DNA of 10,398 bases from Capsulimonas sp. (lineage in GTDB: Bacteria > Armatimonadota > Armatimonadia > Armatimonadales > Capsulimonadaceae): the NCBI GenBank assembly GCA_025963815.1, contig JAOQAA010000186.1:1-10398 (forward strand), in the 5' to 3' direction. Under the pieces are notes generated by a model. It did not search any database, had not been told where the DNA came from, and saw nothing but the letters and a program-made list of their open reading frames with translations. Shown here piece after piece: positions 1,662-9,035 of this stretch; position 1 is the stretch's first letter, and the number at the start of each line of letters is the position of its first letter. The position numbers were made by a program, and so were the translations under genes.

Positions 1662-2861
1662 ATGATTACGCCAACACCCCGACACGCGTCGTGCGCCGCC
1701 TTCGCGGCGTTCGTCGCACTGAGCGTCGCGCTTCCCGCGCAGGCCGCGCCCGTCTCTCCTCTCACCACCGCGAAGACGATCCACGTCGAGGAAACGTGGT
1801 CCATTTCGGCGGGCGAGGATAAGATGGTCACGGCTTACAAAATCACGACGGATATCGCGAAACCGTCGTCGTTTCACACCACGCTGGTTCCCATGATGCG
1901 TAAGGGCGAGCTTCCGTCGGCGCTGATCTCCGACGGCAAAATCGCGCATGAAGTGAACGGCTTCCAGAAGACTTACAGCGCGATTGATCCGCCCAAGACG
2001 GGGGAAGCGCCGGCGTCCGAGATCAGCAGTATGGCGAGCCTCGGAGTGGTTTTCAATCCTGACGCCGCTCCAGTGTCGCCGGAAATCACACGGACAGTCA
2101 GCAGCGACACGCTGGACGGTCGCGCCATGGTGCTGCGCACGGACACCTACCCGCCGCGATCCTTCGGCGGACGCCCCTCGATCACGGAGCTTCACAAGCT
2201 CTGGATCGACGCCAAGACCGGTCTGCCGCGCCGACGCTCCACGTTTGTCATCGCGGACGGAAAGACCCGCGAGGAAGACCGGACGGATTTCCTGACCTGG
2301 ACGCTCAACAAGCCGATCGCCGCCAAGCAATTTGCGTGGTCGCCCCCGGCCGGGATCACGGAGCACGTCGAGCCAAAGCTGCTGGCCTTAGGAACGCCCG
2401 CGCCCGATTTTACCGCGATCGCGCCCGACGGCAAGGAAGTCAAGCTCTCAGATTACAAGGGCAAAACGGTCATTCTGGACTTCTGGGCGACCTGGTGCGG
2501 TCCTTGCCAGGCCAGCATGCCCCACTTAAATTCCGTCTATCAGCAGGTCAAGGACAAAGACGTCGTCGTTCTGGCGCTTTGTGTTTGGGACACTAAGCCC
2601 GAATACGATAAGTGGGTGGCCGCGAAGAAAGACGCCTACTCGTTCCCGACCGCGTACGATCCTGCGGGACGCGGCGAGAAGAGCGTTTCGGGGAGCCTGT
2701 ACAAAGTCTCGGGCATTCCCACCCAGTACATCATTGACAAGGACGGAAAAGTCGCCGCGACCACGGTCGGCTACTCCGAGGGCTCTCACTCTCTGGAAGA
2801 CGCGCTGAAATCGGCGGGAGTGACCGTGGCGGAACCGGTCAAAGGCGCCTCTGCCCAATAA
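1662..2861 (+). CDS. Exported TlpA/ResA-like thioredoxin fused to a LolA/DUF2092-like domain
   Basis: The 399-residue product starts with a Sec signal peptide (about 1-28, cleavage after ALPAQA). Residues about 35-235 resemble the LolA-like/DUF2092 type of beta-rich domain: an N-terminal strand set (HVEETWSIS), a central LWIDAKTGLPRRR (180-192) and a terminal FAWSPPAG (224-231). Residues about 243-385 are a thioredoxin fold of the TlpA/ResA type, with PAPDF (246-250), the WCGPC redox site (Cys279, Cys282) and a cis-proline loop GIPT with Pro353. Members of this family reduce or exchange disulfides in the periplasm and usually need electrons from a DsbD/CcdA-type membrane protein; a DsbD gene lies 1.75 kb downstream. 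The N-terminal domain may bind a lipid-like or hydrophobic ligand, which is inference. The ribosome site (AAGAAAG, 11 bases upstream) is weak. The redox domain is certain and the N-terminal family assignment less so. Confidence 0.9.
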   Translation: MITPTPRHASCAAFAAFVALSVALPAQAAPVSPLTTAKTIHVEETWSISAGEDKMVTAYKITTDIAKPSSFHTTLVPMMRKGELPSALISDGKIAHEVNGFQKTYSAIDPPKTGEAPASEISSMASLGVVFNPDAAPVSPEITRTVSSDTLDGRAMVLRTDTYPPRSFGGRPSITELHKLWIDAKTGLPRRRSTFVIADGKTREEDRTDFLTWTLNKPIAAKQFAWSPPAGITEHVEPKLLALGTPAPDFTAIAPDGKEVKLSDYKGKTVILDFWATWCGPCQASMPHLNSVYQQVKDKDVVVLALCVWDTKPEYDKWVAAKKDAYSFPTAYDPAGRGEKSVSGSLYKVSGIPTQYIIDKDGKVAATTVGYSEGSHSLEDALKSAGVTVAEPVKGASAQ

Positions 2862-4132: not shown

Positions 4133-4618
4133 ATGATCCGACGATCTTTTGCGGCCGCCGCGGCCCTGCTAATCACCGCCGCCATCCCTGCGCTGGCCCA
4201 GATGCCCGGCGCGAATGTGGCGAAGGTGAGCACGACGGCAAAGCCCGCCGCCGTCAAGCATGGCGGCAAAGGCGTGCTGGCGATCACCGTCAACGTCGCT
4301 CCCGGCTTCCATATCAACGCCAACAAGCCCAATGACCCAGACCTGATCCCCACGGTCTTCACGGCGGAGAACACGCCCGGCGTGAAGTTCGGCGCGCCGA
4401 AGTATCCGGCAACCAAGTCGATCACCGTCAGCTATGAGAAGAAGCCGATGCTGGTTTACCAGGGCAAGGCCGTGATCCTGATCCCCTACACCATCGCGCC
4501 GACCGCGAAGCCCGGCAAGGTGGTTCTGAAGGGAACGCTTGGCTTCCAGGGCTGTAACGACTCCAGCTGCTTCCCGCCGGACAGCGCGCCCGTGTCCGCA
4601 TCGGTAACCGTGAAATGA
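4133..4618 (+). CDS. Free-standing DsbD N-terminal (alpha)-domain protein, exported
   Basis: This is a 161-residue protein with a clear signal peptide (about 1-22, ending ALA before QMPG). The mature part matches the immunoglobulin-like DsbD alpha domain: a core HGGKGVLAITVNVAPGFHINAN (43-64), whose second half is the typical pro-GxHI/VN element, and a C-terminal GFQGCNDSSCFPPDS with Cys141 and Cys146, the pair that in DsbD alpha accepts electrons from the gamma domain and passes them to periplasmic partners. It lacks any membrane helix beyond the signal, so it should be a soluble periplasmic protein. The ribosome site AGAGGTAA is strong. Its stop overlaps the start of the downstream dsbD (ATGA, 4615-4618), so the two are probably made together. 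Since that DsbD has its own alpha domain, this one looks like an extra, mobile electron acceptor or shuttle, which is inference. Confidence 0.87.
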   Translation: MIRRSFAAAAALLITAAIPALAQMPGANVAKVSTTAKPAAVKHGGKGVLAITVNVAPGFHINANKPNDPDLIPTVFTAENTPGVKFGAPKYPATKSITVSYEKKPMLVYQGKAVILIPYTIAPTAKPGKVVLKGTLGFQGCNDSSCFPPDSAPVSASVTVK

Positions 4619-6912
4619 AACGTACGCCCCTCGCCCTGATCTTCGCCCTGCTGTCGGCCTTCGCCGTAACGCTCGCGCCCGGCGCGCGCGCCGGCACGCC
4701 GACGCCGATCCACTTCACCGCCACGGTCAGCCCTTCGCCGGTCCATGCCGGCGAAGTGGCGACGGTGACAGTCAAGGCGGCCGTGGATCCGGGCTGGCAC
4801 GTGTACTCCGTGACTCCGGCCGTCAATGGGCCGGCCGTCACGAACATTCTCTCGCTGACGGGATCGGTAAGCGCCGGCCCGACCACCGAGGACACCGTGA
4901 TCCGTAAGTTCGATGCGAACTTCGGGCGCGAGGTCGGCTACCATGCGAACGCCGCGACCTTCCAGCGCCAATTTCGCGTCGGAAGCGATCCGATTGCGTC
5001 TCCCTCGGTGACCCTGCACTACCAAACGTGCAACGACAAAGTCTGCCTCCCACCCACCGACGTCACCCTGCCCGTCACACTGACGGTGGCCGCCGGAACC
5101 GTCCGTCCAGAGTTCGCGACAGCGAAGGTCATCGCCGCCCCGCCCGCCATCGCCGCTGCGGCGACGGCGGCGAAAGCGCCCAGCACCGGGCTGGGACTGT
5201 TTCTATTGGCCGCGCTCGGCGCGGGCCTGCTCGCCCTGATCACTCCCTGCGTCTTCCCACTGATCCCCATCACGCTGACAAACTTCGTCAAGCAGGCCGA
5301 TGGCGACAAGGGAAAGCTGGTTCGACTGTCGTCGGGCTATGCGCTGGGGATCGTCGCGCTGTATGTCGCGCTCGGGGCAATCGTGACGGCGACAGTCGGC
5401 GCCACGGGTATCAACAAGATCGCCGCGAACCCCTGGGTCAACCTCGGGATCTTCGTCGTCTTCGTGGTATTCGCCCTGTCGTTCTTTGAGACGATCCAGC
5501 TAACGCTTCCCGCGAACCTCGGCGCGATGCAAAATACGGCGCGCAAACACGGCGGAGTCACGGGCCTTGCGCTGCTCGGGATCACATTTGTTCTGGCGTC
5601 GTTCACCTGCACGGCGCCATTTCTAGGTACGCTGCTGGTGGCGGCGGCGGGCGGCGAGCGCTTCCGTCCGCTGCTCGGGATGCTGGTCTTCGCCTTTGCC
5701 TTTGTGTCGCCCTTCTTGATCTTTGCCGCCTTCCCGCAGTGGATCGGCAAGATCCCCAAGAGCGGCGTGTGGCTGGCGCGCGTCAAAGCGACGCTTGGTT
5801 TCGTCGAGCTCGCCGCCGCCCTGAAGTTTCTTTCCAACGCCGATCAAGTATGGCAGTGGAAGCTGCTGACCGAACCGGTCCTGCTGGCCGCGTGGTCGCT
5901 GATCTTCTTCTGCGCCGCTTTGTATCTCTGGGGAACCCTGCGCTTCGGCATCGTCGCCGAGACCGAGCCGCACGGCGCCAAAGTCCCGCTGGCGCGCGGC
6001 GCGTTCGCTCTGCTCTTCCTGGTACTGGCAGGCTACTGCTTCAAAGGTCTCGCAGGCCGTCCCGTCGCGCTCTTCAGCGCCTTCCTGCCACCGTCGGGCT
6101 ATGGTGTGAAGGGCGGAGGCGCCTCCGAGGATGGTCTGACCTGGCTGACGAATTACGATGGCGCGCTCGCCCAGGCTAAAGCCGAGGGCAAGCCGCTCTT
6201 CATCGACTTCACGGGCGTCACCTGCACGAACTGCCGCCAGAATGAGAAGAACGTATTCCCGCTCGCTGACGTCCGTGAGGAGCTCGGCAAGTACGTCCGC
6301 GTCCAACTCTACACGGATCGCCCCGGCGACGCCGCCAACCAAAAGCTTCAGCTGACGAAGTTCGGCGATGTCGCGCTGCCCCTCTACGGCGTTGTCGACC
6401 CGCAGACAGGGAACGTGATCGACAAGACCGCCGGCACGATCATCGACACGGGCGCATTCACCCAGTTCCTCTCAAGGTCGCGCATGGCGATCGCCGCGCC
6501 CTCCGCGACAGCTCCCACCGTCGCCGCCGCTCCGGCGTGGGCGCCGTACACTCCCGAGTCGGCGGCGGCCGCTACGCAGGCGGGCAAGCCGACCATCGTG
6601 GACTTCACAGCCGCATGGTGTGTCAACTGCAAGGAGATCGAACACGACGTTTTCGAGCACCCCGACGTCGCGCCCGCCCTGGGACGAAACTTCACCACTC
6701 TGCGCGCCGATCTGACGAAGTGGAACGATCCCGCCAATGTCGCGCTGCAAAAGCAGTACGGCTTTGCAAGCCTGCCCACCATCGTCTTTCTGGACCCCAG
6801 CGGCAAAGAGATCAAGAGCCTGCGCATCACTGGGCGCCTGAGCGTGGCCGAGTTTCAAAAGCGCATGCAGACGGCCGCCCCAGCGGCCGCCGTCTCGGTC
6901 GCACGGGGATAA
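4615..6912 (+). CDS. dsbD: Thiol:disulfide interchange protein DsbD with two C-terminal thioredoxin domains
   Basis: The 765-residue inner-membrane protein moves electrons from cytoplasmic thioredoxin to periplasmic disulfides. In order: a signal peptide (1-26); an alpha domain (about 30-160) with QTCNDKVCLPP, Cys139 and Cys144; an Ala-rich linker; a CcdA-like membrane core (about 192-480, around eight helices) with Cys212 in ITPCVFPLIPIT and Cys332 in SFTCTAPFLG, spaced as in known DsbD; a first thioredoxin domain (about 508-620) with Cys537 and Cys540 in VTCTNC and a cis-Pro in ALP; a Pro/Ala linker (625-642); and a second thioredoxin domain (about 643-755) with Cys669 and Cys672 in WCVNC and SLPT. 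Normal DsbD has only one such gamma domain and is near 570 residues, so about 130 residues here are extra. All eight expected redox cysteines are present. It is coupled to the upstream alpha-domain gene. Likely clients include the TlpA-like protein at 1662. Confidence 0.95.
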   Translation: MKRTPLALIFALLSAFAVTLAPGARAGTPTPIHFTATVSPSPVHAGEVATVTVKAAVDPGWHVYSVTPAVNGPAVTNILSLTGSVSAGPTTEDTVIRKFDANFGREVGYHANAATFQRQFRVGSDPIASPSVTLHYQTCNDKVCLPPTDVTLPVTLTVAAGTVRPEFATAKVIAAPPAIAAAATAAKAPSTGLGLFLLAALGAGLLALITPCVFPLIPITLTNFVKQADGDKGKLVRLSSGYALGIVALYVALGAIVTATVGATGINKIAANPWVNLGIFVVFVVFALSFFETIQLTLPANLGAMQNTARKHGGVTGLALLGITFVLASFTCTAPFLGTLLVAAAGGERFRPLLGMLVFAFAFVSPFLIFAAFPQWIGKIPKSGVWLARVKATLGFVELAAALKFLSNADQVWQWKLLTEPVLLAAWSLIFFCAALYLWGTLRFGIVAETEPHGAKVPLARGAFALLFLVLAGYCFKGLAGRPVALFSAFLPPSGYGVKGGGASEDGLTWLTNYDGALAQAKAEGKPLFIDFTGVTCTNCRQNEKNVFPLADVREELGKYVRVQLYTDRPGDAANQKLQLTKFGDVALPLYGVVDPQTGNVIDKTAGTIIDTGAFTQFLSRSRMAIAAPSATAPTVAAAPAWAPYTPESAAAATQAGKPTIVDFTAAWCVNCKEIEHDVFEHPDVAPALGRNFTTLRADLTKWNDPANVALQKQYGFASLPTIVFLDPSGKEIKSLRITGRLSVAEFQKRMQTAAPAAAVSVARG

Positions 6913-7009: not shown

Positions 7010-8950
7010 ATGAAGTCTACTTCCCACGTCTCTCTGGTGACGATTCTCGCGCTCGCGGCGAGCGCCGGCGTCTGTCAGGCGACATTCGCGGCCGATAAGA
7101 ATGCGCCCAGACCCGATACGCCGCTGAGCGCGCTGATCGTCGGCGGCGGGCCGGATATCAAGCACAATCAGGTCGCCATCGAAAGCAATGTCGTATACGT
7201 GCGGAGCTTGCTGCCTCCCAGCGCCGACACGCGGATTCTATTCGCCGACGGAAATCCGAAATCGGAGACCGTGCTGTACGAGAATAGGCGGCATAACGAG
7301 GTCACGCGCGCGCCGAAGCTGCCCGCACTGGACGCGCCAACCGTTCCTGCAAGCGTCGAGAGCGCCATGGACCTCACCGCGAAGACGGCGGCGGATAAGC
7401 CCTCCCTGCTTTACTTCACGGGACACGGCAGCCCGAACGACAGCGGCGATGTCGACAACAACAAATTCGACATGTGGGATAAGAACGAGTTCACGGTCAA
7501 AAATCTCGCCTCGTCGATCGGCAAGCTGCCCGCGAAAACGCCCGTCACGGTCGTGATGGCGCAGTGCTTCTCCGGAAGCTTCGGCAACCTGATCTTCCAG
7601 AACGGCGACCCTGTCGCGCCGCTGACGGACCGGAACATCTGCGGCTTCTTCGCCAGCATCGCCCAGCGCCCCGCCGCCGGATGTACGACGGAAATCAACC
7701 AGAAAAATTATCGCGACTTCACCAGCTACTTCTTTGCCGCCCTGAGCGGCGAGGATCGATTGGGAAAGCTCACGACCGGCGCCGATTACAACAATGACGG
7801 CAAGGTCGGCATGGATGAAGCGTTCGCCTATACGATCATCAACGACGATTCCATCGACACTCCCGTCTGCACCTCCGATGTCTTCCTGCGGCGATACGCC
7901 AAGATCTCGGACGACGCGATCTTCAAGACGCCCTATTCGCAGGTGATCGCCTGGGCGACGCCCGGGCAGCACGCGGCGATCGAGGCGCTTTCCGATCAGC
8001 TCAAACTCACAGGTGATGGGCGTGTCGGCGACGCTTACAAGACCTTCGCGACCACGATGCTCGCCAGCTTCGAAACCAAGGACGTTCGGGTCATCCGGTT
8101 CGTCCGCCTCGCGAAGACAATCGTCCTTTCCCACGAGATGGTGACGAACGGCGACGAGAGCCTCAAGGCGCGGTACGACGCGCTCAAGGGCGCCGAAGCG
8201 GGCAATCCGCTGACCGGCCCCGCCGCCCCCAGCCCTCTCCCCGCCGTGATCGCCACGCCGAAAACACCCGATGCTCCCACCCCGGCGTTCCTGGCGCATC
8301 AGACCTTCACATTGGGAAAAATGCTCCCGCCCCCAGTGGTGACGATCGATGTGACCGATGCGCCCGAGACAAAAGCGTGGGCCGAAAATGCACAAAAGAT
8401 CGTGACGGAGTGGTTCCCGCTCATCACGCCGTTTCTCGCCACGGATCATTGGAAGGCGCCCAAAACCCTCAAGCTGATCCTGAAGCATGAGAACGACGCG
8501 CCCGCCTACACGGACGGCGACGGCATCACGATCAGCGCCCAGTGGATTACCGACCATCCGGACGACTTCGGCATGGTCATCCACGAACTGACCCACGTGA
8601 TCCAGGGCTACCCCGACAAGGGCGACAAGCCGGGCTGGCTCGTCGAAGGCATCGCCGACTATATCCGCTTCTGGCGCTACGAGTCCGATGTTCCGCGTCC
8701 ACGCATCGATCCGACCAAAGCCAAGTACACCGACGCCTATCGCACCACGGCCGCGTTCATCGCCTGGGCGCAGGGCAAGTACGACCGCAGCCTGATCTTG
8801 AGATTGGACGGCGCCCTTAAGACCGGCGACTACCACGACGCCATGTTCGAACAAATCACGGGCAAGAACCTGGACGCCCTCTGGAGCGAGTTCATCAAGA
8901 CTGTCCCACCGCCCCCGCACCGGCCGTCGGTCACGATGACGATTTCGTAA
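7010..8950 (+). CDS. Secreted two-peptidase fusion: caspase-like (clan CD) domain + EF-hand + BSP-type HExxH metallopeptidase
   Basis: This is a 646-residue exported protein. The ATG at 7010 is chosen over an upstream in-frame TTG because it gives a proper signal peptide (about 1-28, ending ATFA) with AAGAAAG eight bases ahead. Residues about 38-300 show the caspase/legumain-like pattern: a first strand SALIVGGG (40-47), LLYFTGHGS with His139, and VTVVMAQCFSGSF with Cys186, the expected catalytic dyad. A canonical EF-hand loop follows, with Asp259, Asn261, Asp263, Gly264 and Glu270, suggesting calcium binding. After a Pro-rich linker (398-426), residues about 440-632 match the plant and bacterial peptidase/basic secretory protein family (PF04450): VIHELTHVIQGY with His525, Glu526 and His529, then PGWLVEGIADYIRF, which supplies the third-ligand region. 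The protein ends after a Pro-rich tail. It may act on extracellular protein. It follows dsbD by 97 bases and its mature part has several cysteines, so it could be a thiol-redox client. Both active sites look intact; no substrate can be named. Confidence 0.85.
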   Translation: MKSTSHVSLVTILALAASAGVCQATFAADKNAPRPDTPLSALIVGGGPDIKHNQVAIESNVVYVRSLLPPSADTRILFADGNPKSETVLYENRRHNEVTRAPKLPALDAPTVPASVESAMDLTAKTAADKPSLLYFTGHGSPNDSGDVDNNKFDMWDKNEFTVKNLASSIGKLPAKTPVTVVMAQCFSGSFGNLIFQNGDPVAPLTDRNICGFFASIAQRPAAGCTTEINQKNYRDFTSYFFAALSGEDRLGKLTTGADYNNDGKVGMDEAFAYTIINDDSIDTPVCTSDVFLRRYAKISDDAIFKTPYSQVIAWATPGQHAAIEALSDQLKLTGDGRVGDAYKTFATTMLASFETKDVRVIRFVRLAKTIVLSHEMVTNGDESLKARYDALKGAEAGNPLTGPAAPSPLPAVIATPKTPDAPTPAFLAHQTFTLGKMLPPPVVTIDVTDAPETKAWAENAQKIVTEWFPLITPFLATDHWKAPKTLKLILKHENDAPAYTDGDGITISAQWITDHPDDFGMVIHELTHVIQGYPDKGDKPGWLVEGIADYIRFWRYESDVPRPRIDPTKAKYTDAYRTTAAFIAWAQGKYDRSLILRLDGALKTGDYHDAMFEQITGKNLDALWSEFIKTVPPPPHRPSVTMTIS

Positions 8951-8956
8951 GAGGGG

Positions 8957-8962
8957 TATAAT
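8957..8962 (+). promoter_or_regulatory. Candidate -10 box (TATAAT) for the FAD oxidoreductase gene
   Basis: A perfect TATAAT starts six bases after the stop of the peptidase gene. The expected -35 area (about 8934-8939) lies in the end of that gene and has no good match to TTGACA, so the box stands alone. Transcription from it would begin near 8970 and include the hairpin at 8982-9016 in a leader of about 65 bases. Confidence 0.3.
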
Positions 8963-8981
8963 CTCCTAACAACAACTGCGC

Positions 8982-9016
8982 AAAGAAGCCTGGCGAATTT
9001 ATTCACCAGGCTCTTT
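8982..9016 (+). terminator. Long hairpin between the peptidase and oxidoreductase genes
   Basis: AGCCTGG (8987-8993) pairs with CCAGGCT (9006-9012). The stem continues inward past one C/A mismatch with GAA/TTC around a TTTA loop, and outward past a bulged A with AAAG/CTTT. The result is about 14 pairs followed by TTTGGG, a short T run. It can serve as terminator for the upstream gene, or, if the TATAAT at 8957 is a promoter, as a leader hairpin 20 bases before the start codon of the next gene. The ribosome site AGAGGAA (9024-9030) lies outside the stem. Confidence 0.55.
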
Positions 9017-9035
9017 GGGCATTAGAGGAACAAAT

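Follow-up and report, generated by a model that had tools for sequence, protein, structure and literature searches.

Legumains (C13, with GPI8), metacaspases and orthocaspases (C14), the EACC1-associated caspases of NCBIfam NF047832, and basic secretory proteins (BSP/PR-17, PF04450) are the described systems closest to the protein analyzed here. Prokaryotic caspase homologs often carry extra enzyme domains, and a 2012 survey counted 71 Pfam domain types in them (PMC3501461). The word start 'metallo' is absent from its main text, where section 8 names no metallopeptidase partner, and from the available part of a 2020 review (PMC7475262). The window, meaning the whole stretch of DNA that was analyzed (10,398 nucleotides; Capsulimonas sp., assembly GCA_025963815.1, contig JAOQAA010000186.1), contains a gene that joins a clan-CD domain of the caspase/legumain fold to a BSP domain with a gluzincin-like fold. 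A first-pass annotation had described it as a caspase-like peptidase and a metallopeptidase in one protein, and Pfam, structure models, and fold matches support both folds and the join. The fusion is real and is conserved as a genus-level join of a BSP domain to a member of a phylum-wide clan-CD family. The combination looks new; its kind is ordinary.

The fusion protein (P0001) differs from each of the described systems. It has no match up to E 1 with PF01650 (Peptidase_C13), and compared to legumains it has an added EF-type loop. With PF00656 (Peptidase_C14) it also has no match up to E 1, the Asp found in metacaspases two positions before the catalytic Cys is replaced by Ala or Val, and in the C14 profile alignment most of the EF-type loop faces a gap. 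NF047832 is the best curated model for the cysteine-half family, with matches to 76 of 95 members at E <=0.1, but the fusion protein is not a member of it (residues 107-248, E 1.6e-4, 21.3 bits versus a cut-off of 140). The BSP domain, the HExxH motif, and the downstream Glu are shared with BSP/PR-17 proteins, whereas other BSPs are stand-alone or have other partners. A literature search, with subscription journals mostly outside its coverage, returned no paper with both 'metacaspase' and 'armatimonad', and no title or abstract opening that indicates a fusion of clan CD with BSP. No description was found of this Armatimonadota family of clan-CD proteins with an EF-type loop.

The fusion gene and its distribution

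Both halves of the gene are maintained in two genomes of the genus. The window is part of a draft genome (G000) that is 69% complete and in 734 contigs, a setting in which an assembly artefact or a frameshift could join two genes. Such a join is excluded here: there is one open frame, and the same fusion is found in G021, a single-contig genome of 7.6 Mb from the same genus, with 81% identity to P0001 across residues 1-646. The sequence of P0002 is contained letter for letter in the G021 fusion protein. Between the two fusion genes dN/dS (Nei-Gojobori, own script) is 0.17 in the cysteine core, 0.11 in the helical part, and 0.10 in the BSP half, all well below 1, so both halves have been kept. 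The 28 codons of the signal peptide have a dN/dS of 0.99. In the linker, which is 80% identical with a dN of 0.12 and includes conserved Lys and Asp residues, synonymous change is saturated. An alternative longer frame begins at TTG 6932, and ATG 7010 is the best fit to the signal peptide. The signal peptide MKSTSHVSLVTILALAASAGVCQATFA that the annotation reported is evident by inspection. By a crude test P0001 has a hydrophobic N-terminus, as do 105 of 120 listed proteins (P0001 among them).

The fusion looks like a recent genus-level join. It is present in both of the genomes of the genus that were examined. A search of 291 Armatimonadota genomes gave matches in 106, and among the matches listed a single match over residues 1-646 occurred only in G000 and G021; where candidates were many only four were scored, and a diverged fusion or a neighboring pair could escape. 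The domain order, for which a search in other genomes had been proposed, recurs in G021 and is confined to one genus among the genomes searched. The first two protein searches returned 180 proteins, the first contributing the best 120 of 936. The cysteine half is found in 120 of these and the BSP half in 62 (searched over a range of about 355-1130 aa), and only P0001 and P0002 have both. No additional fusion was present among the best 120 of 658 relatives from a search with the 514-aa class. The searches with 936 and 658 scored relatives (E <=1e-3) may overlap, and part of the 936 may match through the BSP half.

Elsewhere the two halves occur as separate genes, and the BSP half is common. G022 belongs to a different genus of this family, and its BSP is encoded on its own, beginning with a signal-like N-terminus. 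Both cysteine-half pieces of G022 are truncated by the ends of their contigs; the one that keeps its C-terminal end has no BSP part. A phylogeny of the cysteine half (82 rows, 72 of them different) places the fused pair among BSP-less proteins, in a group that is not strongly supported (92/90) and includes P0008, other listed proteins, and one of two G000 paralogs. In the BSP phylogeny (68 rows) the two fused proteins cluster as a clade of their own (100/99), inside a larger group with the same support (100/99) that holds the separate genes of G022 and G036 along with two-part BSP proteins lacking the cysteine half. By inspection, the end of the linker is similar to the part of the stand-alone BSP L038 that follows its signal-like N-terminus. 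A secreted BSP gene may have been joined behind one stand-alone copy of the cysteine peptidase in the ancestor of the genus. An origin from an operon was considered and is unsupported, since among the matches listed the halves lie side by side in no genome but G000 and G021. Several genomes hold both halves on different contigs or far apart. Plasmid records gave matches to the BSP half only, in three records.

The two halves of the protein

The cysteine half belongs to a large, unnamed family with an EF-type loop that is spread across the Armatimonadota. Contigs with names gave 30 loci for the cysteine half, of which 26 have Armatimonadota-lineage names, one is Abditibacteriaceae, and three are called 'bacterium'; the scan relied on two short peptide patterns, and other phyla are possible. 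P0181 has the source label Chloroherpetonaceae, yet a contig named Chthonomonadaceae elsewhere encodes the identical protein. The cysteine half of P0001 reaches no cut-off in all of Pfam, so the Pfam search that had been proposed was positive for the BSP part (67.7 bits) and negative for this part. Other family members come closer to described families. PF00656 matches 16 of 95 at E <=0.1 (best 2.7e-4) and PF01650 matches 38 of 95 (best 1.4e-4). With PF01650 the paralog from G000 scores 16.6 bits, below the cut-off of 22.8, and four members in related genomes are above it. One of the best 120 of the 658 relatives of the 514-aa class has a precomputed Pfam label (P0262, PF00656). A sequence search of the PDB with P0001 gave eight weak matches to MHC class I and leucocyte antigens (E >=0.17), which were attributed to chance, and a search with the A2 profile gave no match. 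In a second class within the family, about 490-550 aa long, some 75-80 extra residues are inserted ahead of the final conserved helices (14 of 151 rows). Its members are L018, L019, L022-L024, and L026-L034, and by length probably P0181-P0300. As for recognized C14 caspases, G025 from the same taxonomic family has eight matches, while G000 (at its 69% completeness) and G021 have none.

Structure models suggest that the cysteine half has an intact catalytic dyad. The two halves were modelled separately because a mixed alignment drew BSP rows onto the cysteine half. The cysteine-half model has a pLDDT of 89.4 and a pTM of 0.87, and structural alignments to legumain and metacaspases span approximately residues 36-404. 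Strand 132-141 carries H139 near its end, and C186 comes right after strand 179-184, which supports the predicted placement of both as in the caspase/legumain fold. In a single hhalign comparison with C14 (probability 95.2, P 7.4e-9) the dyad was aligned to the C14 His and Cys. The motifs listed by the first-pass annotation are in place: YFTGH139GS, VMAQC186FSGS, the EF loop at 259-270, and HELTH at 525-529 followed by PGWLVEGIADY. Its structural expectations also held up, in that the models give strand positions for H139 and C186 that fit the caspase/legumain fold and a helical HELTH in a gluzincin-like fold. With the clan-CD fold and the His-then-Cys dyad in its HG and Cys contexts, peptidase activity is predicted.

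Conservation was determined in an alignment of 151 rows, which includes P0001 and some duplicates, and in a second set of 120 further relatives of the longer class. H139 and C186 are invariant (151/151 and 120/120). C225 is found in 150/151 and 120/120, and C287 in 146/151 and 118/120. C211 is present in 139/151 rows and is mostly Ala in the second set. Two positions before the Cys, all 151 rows have Ala or Val and all 120 of the second set have Val, so the acidic residue of metacaspases and orthocaspases is absent. In AtMC4 this position is Asp137, two before Cys139, and is part of the S1 pocket (PMC7206013, available part). Because the family has Ala or Val here, it is not expected to share the preference of metacaspases for basic P1 residues.

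The EF-type loop is a conserved part of the cysteine half. The strict pattern fits 142/151 rows and 117/120 of the second set, and D259 and E270 are invariant (151/151 and 120/120). With conservation at this level, neither the dyad motifs nor the loop can be chance occurrences. The loop has the canonical 12 residues of an EF hand, and calcium binding is predicted. In the model helix 268-278 follows the loop, and the preceding helix stops at residue 246 and not directly at the loop. The loop had been placed directly after the peptidase core; the structural alignments put it inside the domain. It had also been compared to calcium-activated metacaspases. The loop itself is conserved in the Armatimonadota family, but the likeness to metacaspases is an analogy, since the C14 profile has a gap along most of the loop and the term 'EF-hand' is absent from the available part of the AtMC4 structure paper (PMC7206013).

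The BSP half is recognized by Pfam and has a predicted zinc site. PF04450 matches residues 484-628 with 67.7 bits (cut-off 23.8, E 1.6e-18). The model (pLDDT 92.8, pTM 0.88) has a gluzincin-like fold in which HELTH is on helix 100-112 (residues 520-532). HExxH on a helix with a downstream Glu is the arrangement of gluzincins (clan MA), and zinc binding is predicted from it. We take Glu546 to be the third ligand, as in gluzincins. A match of the BSP half to eCIS_core (E 0.0067, below its cut-off) was rejected, as it is only a short match around HExxH. Among the matches listed, P0123, P0125-P0129, and P0132 have a BSP domain and a second C-terminal part with HEV-x-H-[VI]-V-E-G, and perhaps carry two metallopeptidase-like sites. 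Both genomes of the genus also have a tandem pair of other BSP genes (L044:1531-4499; L037:7108-10023).

Function and rival explanations

A secreted peptidase role for the fusion is predicted from the sequence and the models. On balance it is somewhat likely that the protein is a two-headed peptidase whose cysteine half is stabilized by calcium. After export the cysteine half would fold around Ca2+ and act as an endopeptidase on proteins, with a P1 preference other than the Arg/Lys found in metacaspases. The same substrate would subsequently be trimmed or cut by the tethered zinc half, and owing to the tether the two activities would be produced and exported jointly. The protein probably serves extracytoplasmic protein turnover or nutrition. 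We infer the proteolysis and calcium dependence in this proposal, as well as the self-processing and the thiol control by DsbD that are weighed below. A hydroxamate labels PRp27, a BSP protein of plants, in a manner that depends on the metal site, according to the available part of the report (PMC9322406), and this supports the two-headed peptidase.

The first-pass annotation had also raised the possibility that one domain processes the other. In that case the calcium-triggered cysteine half would cut in or near the linker (residues 406-440) and free or activate the BSP half, which then degrades. Legumain is known to cleave itself, which favors such processing. The same is true of the metacaspase AtMC4 on addition of calcium (PMC7206013, available part). 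The rather good conservation of the linker, with its Lys and Asp residues, also fits. However, the S1 Asp of metacaspases is replaced by Ala or Val here, and no cleavage site can be predicted. The stand-alone BSP of G022 (L038) has by inspection no evident pro-region before its domain, so nothing suggests that a BSP needs activation. Overall this type of processing seems unlikely. It is also doubtful that one or both heads are something other than ordinary proteases, the cysteine half being a ligase or transamidase like some legumains and GPI8, and the BSP half hydrolyzing small molecules or only binding metal. Legumain, peptide ligases, and GPI transamidase are among the top fold matches. Plant BSP relatives without cleavage of casein or gelatin are reported, and the immunity effect of PRp27 is independent of its metal site (PMC9322406, available part). 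On the other hand, the sites of both halves are intact and invariant. An intact dyad in a clan-CD fold usually marks a protease.

Thiol control is compatible with a two-headed secreted peptidase, and both can hold. The DsbD encoded upstream and the nearby redoxins would keep C186 reduced or handle disulfides in the domain, making the protein a member of an extracytoplasmic unit under redox control. The gene order is consistent with this: redoxin, DsbD, fusion, and FAD-oxidoreductase are in the same order in G021 as in the window, with a second redoxin in between. All three G000 contigs with a cysteine-half gene hold AhpC-TSA matches, four of the genome's 25, where about 0.15 would be expected by chance on those 29.5 kb (own arithmetic; the test was chosen after the pattern was seen). 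P0008, a relative of the cysteine half, is naturally fused to a DUF2092-like redoxin, and C225 and C287 are nearly always present. However, these two cysteines are not lost jointly, and redoxins are common, with 25 and 35 matches per genome, the link having been seen post hoc. In a six-frame scan redoxin neighbors were found in only 5 of 44 cysteine-half loci, four of the five from this genus; the 44 include duplicates, among them L049/L054, L046/L062, L051/L082, and L039/L064. Thiol control is thus improbable as the explanation. Quite improbable too is the most elaborate proposal, a caspase-like protease switched by calcium and by thiols (DsbD/TlpA) that releases its own tethered metallopeptidase, forming an extracellular cascade of two catalytic types on one chain.

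Two catalytic types on one secreted chain would offer a test of what tethering is for, cascade activation or joint degradation. The cysteine half also reveals a large unnamed clan-CD family that is mostly exported-looking and has a built-in EF-type loop, and this neglected family of cysteine peptidases may matter more than the fusion itself.

Features and neighboring genes

Table 1. Features of the window, with the evidence for each
Feature	Position	Strand	Evidence
Redoxin (AhpC-TSA, TlpA/ResA-like) gene, weak DUF2092 match	1662..2861	+	Pfam
DsbD N-terminal-domain gene	4133..4618	+	Pfam; upstream of DsbD gene, overlapping it
DsbD-type thiol:disulfide interchange gene	4615..6912	+	Directly upstream of fusion; stop 97 bp before ATG
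Fusion gene, 646 aa	7010..8950	+	Translation without stop; same fusion in G021
Sec-type signal peptide, about residues 1-28	7010..7093	+	Sequence; cleavage site by inspection
Predicted clan-CD (caspase/legumain-fold) domain, residues 38-405	7121..8224	+	Model; legumain/metacaspase matches; hhalign to C14
His139, predicted catalytic dyad	7424..7426	+	Conservation; aligned to C14 His
Cys186, predicted catalytic nucleophile	7565..7567	+	Conservation; aligned to C14 Cys
EF-hand-type loop, residues 259-270, DYNNDGKVGMDE	7784..7819	+	Strict pattern; D259/E270 invariance
Pro/Ala-rich linker, residues 406-440	8225..8329	+	Sequence
BSP (PF04450) gluzincin-like domain, residues 441-635	8330..8914	+	Pfam; model
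HELTH, residues 525-529	8582..8596	+	H525, E526, and H529 conserved in all of 53 aligned rows
Glu546, predicted third zinc ligand (HExxH-x16-E)	8645..8647	+	Invariant in 53 rows
Strong hairpin after fusion gene	8977..9021	+	Terminator-like, no long T run

Transcription may end after the fusion gene. The hairpin (-32.9 kcal/mol, z -6.4 for positions 8951-9035) suggests a transcript end ahead of the FAD gene. It is not among the matches to the consensus terminator, of which 11 were found versus 10.5 expected, with none located where the fusion gene ends. A scan for consensus promoters found six versus 2.8 expected, with none close to the fusion gene. Among the cysteine-half loci no neighbor recurs widely. 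The DsbD gene of the window has two thioredoxin-like stretches, and the gene overlapping it encodes a stand-alone DsbD N-terminal domain. This small gene was not seen in the list of neighbors in G021. Elsewhere in G000 a redoxin gene is located directly upstream of another copy of the cysteine half (L042:8697-9185 and 7451-8716).
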